Shown: positions 17,429-17,931 of the stretch, in pieces | How positions within the stretch are numbered: the stretch's first letter is position 1 | How the letters are laid out: the number at the start of each line of letters is the position of its first letter | Assembly (NCBI GenBank): GCA_903920205.1 | Contig: CAIXLI010000139.1 | Location: 1-33,651 of the forward strand | Origin: an uncultured Pseudomonadota bacterium | GTDB taxonomy: Bacteria; Pseudomonadota; Alphaproteobacteria; UBA9219 | Direction of reading: 5' to 3' | Length of the DNA: 33,651 nucleotides | The notes under the pieces: generated by a model | What the model was told of the DNA's origin: nothing | What the model saw: only the letters and a program-made list of their open reading frames with translations | Database searches by the model: none | Position numbers and translations under genes: made by a program

Positions 17429-17527
17429 CTCGTTTTCCGTTCATCATTCGTTAGTAATTATCGCGCATAGCTTGTTCCATAGCGCGATTGCGGATTCTTT
17501 TTTGCGCTATGCGTTTCATTCTTTCAT

Positions 17528-17567
17528 CCCCCCGTGCATTGTCAAAGATGCGCGAGGGATTTTTTTT
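17528..17567 (+). terminator. intrinsic terminator downstream of tadA
   Basis: The arm CCCCCCGTGCAT (17528-17539) pairs with ATGCGCGAGGG (17548-17558), allowing one G-U pair and a bulge. The loop has eight bases and eight consecutive T follow (17560-17567). It would end transcripts from tadA or from a short RNA starting downstream of tadA. Confidence 0.7.
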
Positions 17568-17678
17568 GCGCGAATGAAAATTCGACTCGTTCGCCGCCAA
17601 ACATGTTGCGTCCATGCAACGCGTCGGAACGATGCGACATGTTTCGAGTCAAAATCATGATCGGCGCATAAAATCTTG

Positions 17679-17707
17679 TTGACTATTTTTGGGACAAGAC
17701 ACAACAT
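17679..17707 (+). promoter_or_regulatory. possible promoter for the lysine-rich peptide gene
   Basis: TTGACT (17679-17684) is a near-consensus -35 box. The -10 position at 17-base spacing (CAACAT, 17702-17707) is poor, so only the -35 supports this. Confidence 0.25.
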
Positions 17708-17745
17708 CAACTCCTCTACTCTAGTCAATCAACCAGGAGGTCACT

Positions 17746-17838
17746 ATGGCTGCTGCTAAAAAGAAGACCGCTGCGAAGAAACCCGCGGCGAAGAAGGTTG
17801 CTAAGAAGCCCGTCAAGAAGGCTGCTAAGAAGAAGTAA
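17746..17838 (+). CDS. 30-residue lysine/alanine-rich histone-tail-like peptide
   Basis: The peptide has 14 Lys and 10 Ala among 30 residues, arranged as repeated AAKKP and VAKKP units, and has no other charged side chains. This composition matches the C-terminal tails of histone H1-like bacterial proteins, so it probably binds DNA or RNA non-specifically; this is inferred from composition. A near-perfect Shine-Dalgarno sequence (AGGAGGT) lies five bases before the ATG, and two hairpins follow the stop, the second a strong terminator. It therefore looks like an independent, well-translated gene rather than a fragment of a longer histone-like protein. It is too short for routine gene finders. 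Confidence 0.75.
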   Translation: MAAAKKKTAAKKPAAKKVAKKPVKKAAKKK

Positions 17839-17843
17839 TCTTC

Positions 17844-17859
17844 GTCGCCTTCGGGCGAC
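17844..17859 (+). terminator. UUCG-capped hairpin after the lysine-rich peptide gene
   Basis: GTCGCC (17844-17849) pairs perfectly with GGCGAC (17854-17859) around a TTCG tetraloop, six bases past the stop. Only a broken T-rich stretch follows, so it may be a 3' stabilising hairpin rather than a terminator. Confidence 0.5.
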
Positions 17860-17873
17860 ATGATTTTATCTTC

Positions 17874-17931
17874 AACCCCCGTTCGGTATGCTACGCGACT
17901 GCTGGCAATCCGAACGGGGGTTAAGTTTTTT
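17874..17931 (+). terminator. strong intrinsic terminator with 13-bp stem
   Basis: AACCCCCGTTCGG (17874-17886) pairs perfectly with CCGAACGGGGGTT (17910-17922). Six T follow at 17926-17931. The loop is unusually large at 23 bases. Confidence 0.8.

Follow-up and report, generated by a model that had tools for sequence, protein, structure and literature searches.

Conserved promoter-region DNA of a tiny Lys-rich peptide gene in an alphaproteobacterial order, with a terminator 5' of the promoter

Organization and conservation of the peptide gene unit

In the window, i.e. the whole 33,651-nucleotide stretch of DNA that was analysed, an intergenic region separates tadA from a gene for a tiny basic peptide. 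Judged by comparison with relatives, the stretch 17440-17660 is mostly conserved promoter DNA of this peptide gene, with a genuine terminator 5' of the promoter. The following features have been distinguished:

17440-17468, plus strand: conserved box M1, TTCATCATTCGTTAGTAATT-N6-CATA, a candidate distal promoter or protein site
17460-17466/17482-17488, 17464-17471/17506-17513 and 17478-17485/17504-17511: competing pairings from an inverted-repeat check
17493-17497, no strand assigned: GATTC, a GANTC (CcrM-type) site 46 nt after TTCGTTAG
17525-17567, plus strand: intrinsic terminator 5' of the peptide-gene promoter, conserved in the genus
17603-17621, no strand assigned: dyad ATGTTGC-GTCCA-TGCAACG, a putative operator/activator site
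17646-17650, no strand assigned: GAGTC, a GANTC site 43 nt after the dyad start
17679-17707, plus strand: peptide-gene promoter, TTGACT-N17-CAACAT, its -35 conserved in all units and its -10 in most
17735-17740, plus strand: ribosome-binding site AGGAGG, conserved in alignment A1
17746-17838, plus strand: gene for the 30-residue Lys/Ala-rich peptide MAAAKKKTAAKKPAAKKVAKKPVKKAAKKK, with homologous tiny basic ORFs
17844-17859, plus strand: small hairpin GTCGCC-TTCG-GGCGAC directly 3' of the stop codon, similar in most units
17875-17930, plus strand: main intrinsic terminator of the peptide gene (z -7.06), with a conserved inner loop

Relatives in the same order have been collected by DNA similarity, by sequence pattern and with a sequence model. 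Model matches at E 0.01 or better were obtained for 21 of 32 genomes of the order, two matches of family f2 (L117 and one other) being marginal. Among 385 genomes drawn from the class outside the order, only two further weak matches (L118 and L119) appeared. On inspection L117, L118 and L119 lack the basic peptide and are probably due to chance. Two candidate second copies, a 27-bp match at another place in the genome (L002) and one in G030 (L019), are apparently protein-coding or unrelated sequence. A recognisable copy was absent from several of the order genomes searched, namely f2 and most of genus g2. The named records of the relatives are MAGs labelled Alphaproteobacteria, Rhodospirillales, uncultured proteobacterium or Micavibrio sp.

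The 5' neighbour of the unit is tadA in G000, G007 and G004, an outward-pointing tRNA with a CAT anticodon in G003, G006, G018, G016, G014 and G011, and another gene in each of the remaining units. Because the upstream neighbours differ among genomes, the unit is assigned to the peptide gene rather than tadA. Beside these different genes it keeps its form, and it closes with a covarying terminator: 9 of the 19 pairs of the hairpin at 17875-17930 are changed on both sides among 18 sequences. The inner CGCGA loop of this hairpin is kept across genera and is more conserved than termination requires.

The promoter hexamers follow the TTGACA-N17-TATAAT-like pattern of sigma-70; the -35 TTGAC is present in 19/19 units, and CAACAT, a weak -10, lies at 17-nt spacing in most. 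A ACTCTACTCTAGTCA-type leader is conserved 3' of the promoter in most units, and a GGAGG-type ribosome site is common to all units. Each unit carries a tiny basic Lys/Ala-rich ORF of 17-45 aa; no Pfam or NCBIfam match to the peptide was obtained. We infer from composition only that the peptide is histone-H1-tail-like, with a DNA-compacting role. The ORF family of 17746-17838, with its strong ribosome site and its presence in much of one alphaproteobacterial order, is a candidate overlooked small protein. Short genes like this one are usually skipped by gene callers, and here the gene comes with a rigid promoter layout in a poorly studied order. A minus-strand ORF at 17451-17615 was rejected, its frame being broken in relatives (by inspection), as was a mobile or viral unit, for which an IMG/VR search gave no match.

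RNA folding and the upstream terminator

An earlier note on this DNA, made by eye, had described the intergenic region as unusually dense in RNA stems, and had overlooked the peptide promoter (17679-17707), the conserved box (17440-17459) and, 3' of the peptide gene, a second and stronger terminator. The inverted repeats it named are all present in the sequence, each at its coordinates, but most of the RNA folds are at the level of chance. The whole intergenic strand folds about as well as its dinucleotide shuffles (z -1.42, with 9 of 100 shuffles equally good); the reverse strand gives z -1.01. The overlapping pairings of 7-8 bp do exist, yet their part of the region (17455-17520) reaches only z -0.96 and the stems are lost in relatives, the same-genus alignment included. 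In the 67-base nested palindrome at 17584-17650 (z -1.70), the inner dyad GTTGC-N6-GCAAC proved conserved and the outer arms did not. These arms are two GANTC sites, GACTC at 17584-17588 and GAGTC at 17646-17650, rather than a hairpin; a pair of such sites can mimic an inverted repeat. A hairpin with a GNRA-type cap had also been described, but no convincing stem of this kind was found and the cap is not conserved. In the search against the family models of Rfam 15, only tRNA exceeded the gathering threshold within the window, the best sub-threshold match having an E of 0.58, and the intergenic region gave no match at the gathering threshold or at E 10. Dense inverted repeats spotted by eye between genes thus need not signal RNA structure.

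The intrinsic terminator, in turn, has been confirmed. With z -4.80, it is the sole upstream element in clear excess over chance, and its hairpin and T-run recur in G007, G003 and G006, i.e. in four genomes of the genus including that of the window. In G007 the stem GCATC/GATGC is replaced by GCTTC/GAAGC and the outer stems are re-paired. In these relatives the terminator stems have changed yet remain paired; the alternative stems are not kept. For the inner helix of the terminator, 117 of 500 shuffles score equally well, which is a weak test with four sequences, so the case for the terminator rests on fold stability and position. A counterpart was not found in most other genera.

What this terminator serves can be read in several ways. 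As an attenuator, it would be toggled by exclusive stems between terminator and antiterminator, and a distal promoter located at the 17440 box would drive the peptide gene. The competing pairings are physically there and the terminator does lie 3' of them; however, they are unconserved even within the genus, the region folds like shuffles, and a conserved promoter of its own precedes the peptide gene, 3' of the terminator. The terminator, standing about 110 nt 5' of that promoter instead of between promoter and gene, cannot attenuate it. Given this order and the loss of the exclusive stems in the same-genus alignment, the attenuator suggested earlier is unsupported (a riboswitch would fail on the same two points), and we consider it hardly credible; in the genus, a form acting on read-through from a distal promoter near the 17440 box keeps a slight chance.

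Alternatively, the terminator might just end the tadA mRNA, and the rest up to the promoter would be a promoter region of the usual kind, serving the peptide gene. Both the window and G007 have tadA directly 5' in the same orientation, where a terminator after the gene is to be expected. This explanation is a real possibility, though we doubt it: the same terminator occurs in G003 and G006 without an upstream tadA, G004 has an upstream tadA and no terminator there, and the box at 17440 is left unexplained. In G003 and G006 the interval from the outward-pointing tRNA to the terminator contains no known plus-strand gene, and this tRNA facing away hints at a short non-coding transcript. A trans-acting small RNA of about 100 nt that begins close to the 17440 box and ends with the terminator at 17567, with dyad and promoter as separate matters, would agree with that interval and with the conservation of both terminator and box in the four genomes of the genus. 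Still, no conserved sigma-70 promoter was seen 5' of the box, the terminator is the sole conserved internal structure, the box occurs without it in most other genera, Rfam gave no match, and in the window and G007 the terminator may simply serve tadA. Such an RNA is somewhat unlikely, a little more so than a mere tadA end.

The dyad, the upstream box and the GANTC sites

The arms of the dyad ATGTTGC-N5-TGCAACG are identical in 18 units from genomes of the order, with only the first base varying in three, an apparent invariance that is inflated, as many units were gathered with the dyad pattern itself; the dyad was found also in units retrieved solely through the DNA similarity of their promoters. 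Across 13 equally spaced units, identity is 100% in the arms, 33% in the centre and 39% in the spacer, the latter two being near random. The distance from the dyad to TGTTGAC (-35) is 55-56 nt, and 46 nt in G001, about one helical turn shorter. The centre of the dyad lies near -101 relative to the start presumed from the -10 position, and each genome has an exact copy at this locus only. Symmetric invariant arms, a variable centre and a fixed spacing to the promoter are the marks of an operator, and the dyad has all three. Because it is located 5' of the promoter and thereby outside the peptide mRNA, it is read as DNA. The earlier suggestion of an operator has thus gained support, and the dyad is likely an operator or activator site for a predicted binding protein.

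A natural symmetric variant of the dyad, AGGTGATGCATCGTTGCATCACCT, occurs in G011 (L116, about 1500-1525). This variant, GTGATGC-N5-TGCATCAC, was retrieved by the model and not by the pattern; both arms are changed and the promoter spacing is the same (-35 at 77). It may be the mark of a regulator with altered specificity. The symmetric double change GATGC/GCATC is also what would be expected if the dyad worked as an RNA or DNA hairpin instead of a protein site. That alternative seems quite improbable: apart from G011, the 18 units show no compensatory changes while the loop varies freely, the dyad keeps a fixed distance from the promoter, and its position 5' of the promoter leaves it absent from the peptide mRNA.

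The core of box M1, TTCATnATTCGTTAG at 17440-17454, is found in the same or a close form in 12/19 homologous units, 127-162 nt 5' of the dyad and beside several different upstream genes. It persists in units without an upstream tRNA, so a tRNA promoter has been rejected. Neither box nor dyad fits EcfG, RpoH, sigma-28, CtrA or parS/dif (compared by eye with their consensus sequences).

GANTC sites recur in both blocks. Such a site stands 43-47 nt after TTCGTTAG in 8/12 box-bearing units, and 6/18 units have one at offset 43 counted from the start of the dyad (offsets 42-49 in 9/18). The two blocks carry 9.4 and 8.1 GANTC sites per kb, about two to four times the 2.3-4.5 per kb of other intergenic DNA; 0/500 and 3/500 shuffles reached these densities. 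The window as a whole (1-33651) is depleted in GANTC, with 79 sites where dinucleotide shuffles predict 142. The genome encodes gcrA and a RAMA-domain gene (388-codon open frame), whose product is taken as a candidate CcrM because the match is shared by Caulobacter alone among the control genomes. Two points weigh on the other side: GANTC is generally enriched in intergenic DNA of alphaproteobacteria (PMC7987155), and the sites near the main promoter, about 65 bp 5' of the presumed start, fall outside the -40 to +40 window used for GcrA targets in Caulobacter (PMC7987155).

Proposed regulation and likeness to known systems

From the comparison of genomes it is established that the promoter, the strictly spaced dyad, the recurring GANTC and the upstream box travel with the peptide gene and its terminator. 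The explanation that we favour, and hold to be fairly probable, is cis-regulatory DNA of a lineage-specific Lys/Ala-rich peptide gene, with an activator-operated, possibly cell-cycle-timed promoter and, in the genus, a separate short upstream transcript. A dimeric activator would occupy the dyad, whose centre is some 100 bp 5' of the transcription start, always on the same face of the helix, and help RNA polymerase at TTGACT-17-CAACAT; GcrA and methylated GANTC may adjust the timing. In the genus, the short transcript would start near the upstream box and stop at the terminator 17525-17567, which could also shield the regulated promoter from upstream transcription. It counts against the activator that regulators devoted to one gene are unusual. 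A bolder version would be a CcrM/GcrA-timed circuit with a single target: a dedicated regulator would read the one dyad of each genome and turn on a minimal "linker-histone tail" micropeptide that compacts the nucleoid, accompanied by a small RNA encoded upstream. This version is improbable in our estimation. Dyad and GANTC provide a handle on whether bacteria of this order time the production of a histone-tail-like peptide.

In CRP/FNR-type class I activator promoters, two inverted 5-bp half-sites (TGTGA or TTGAT) lie 6 bp apart, 5' of the -35 and -10. The dyad shares the two inverted 5-bp half-sites, the 6-bp gap and the spacing shift of about one helical turn; it differs in its half-site GTTGC, in the single site per genome and in that its binding protein is a predicted one. 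Histone H1-like Lys-rich bacterial proteins and tails, such as AlgP, HU tails and phasin tails, are strongly basic and built of AAKK/KKPA/KKTA repeats. The peptide has the same repeats and basicity, but the whole of it comprises only 17-45 residues, with no folded domain and no Pfam/NCBIfam match. With the GcrA/CcrM-regulated promoters of Caulobacter (PMC3667746, PMC7987155) the unit shares a conserved GANTC near the promoter, several as YGAKTCK, as well as gcrA and the RAMA-domain gene, whereas GANTC is placed here some 65 bp 5' of the start presumed for the main promoter. Both terminators, at 17525-17567 and 17875-17930, have the GC-rich hairpin and T-run of Rho-independent terminators, to which 17875-17930 adds the conserved inner loop CGCGA.
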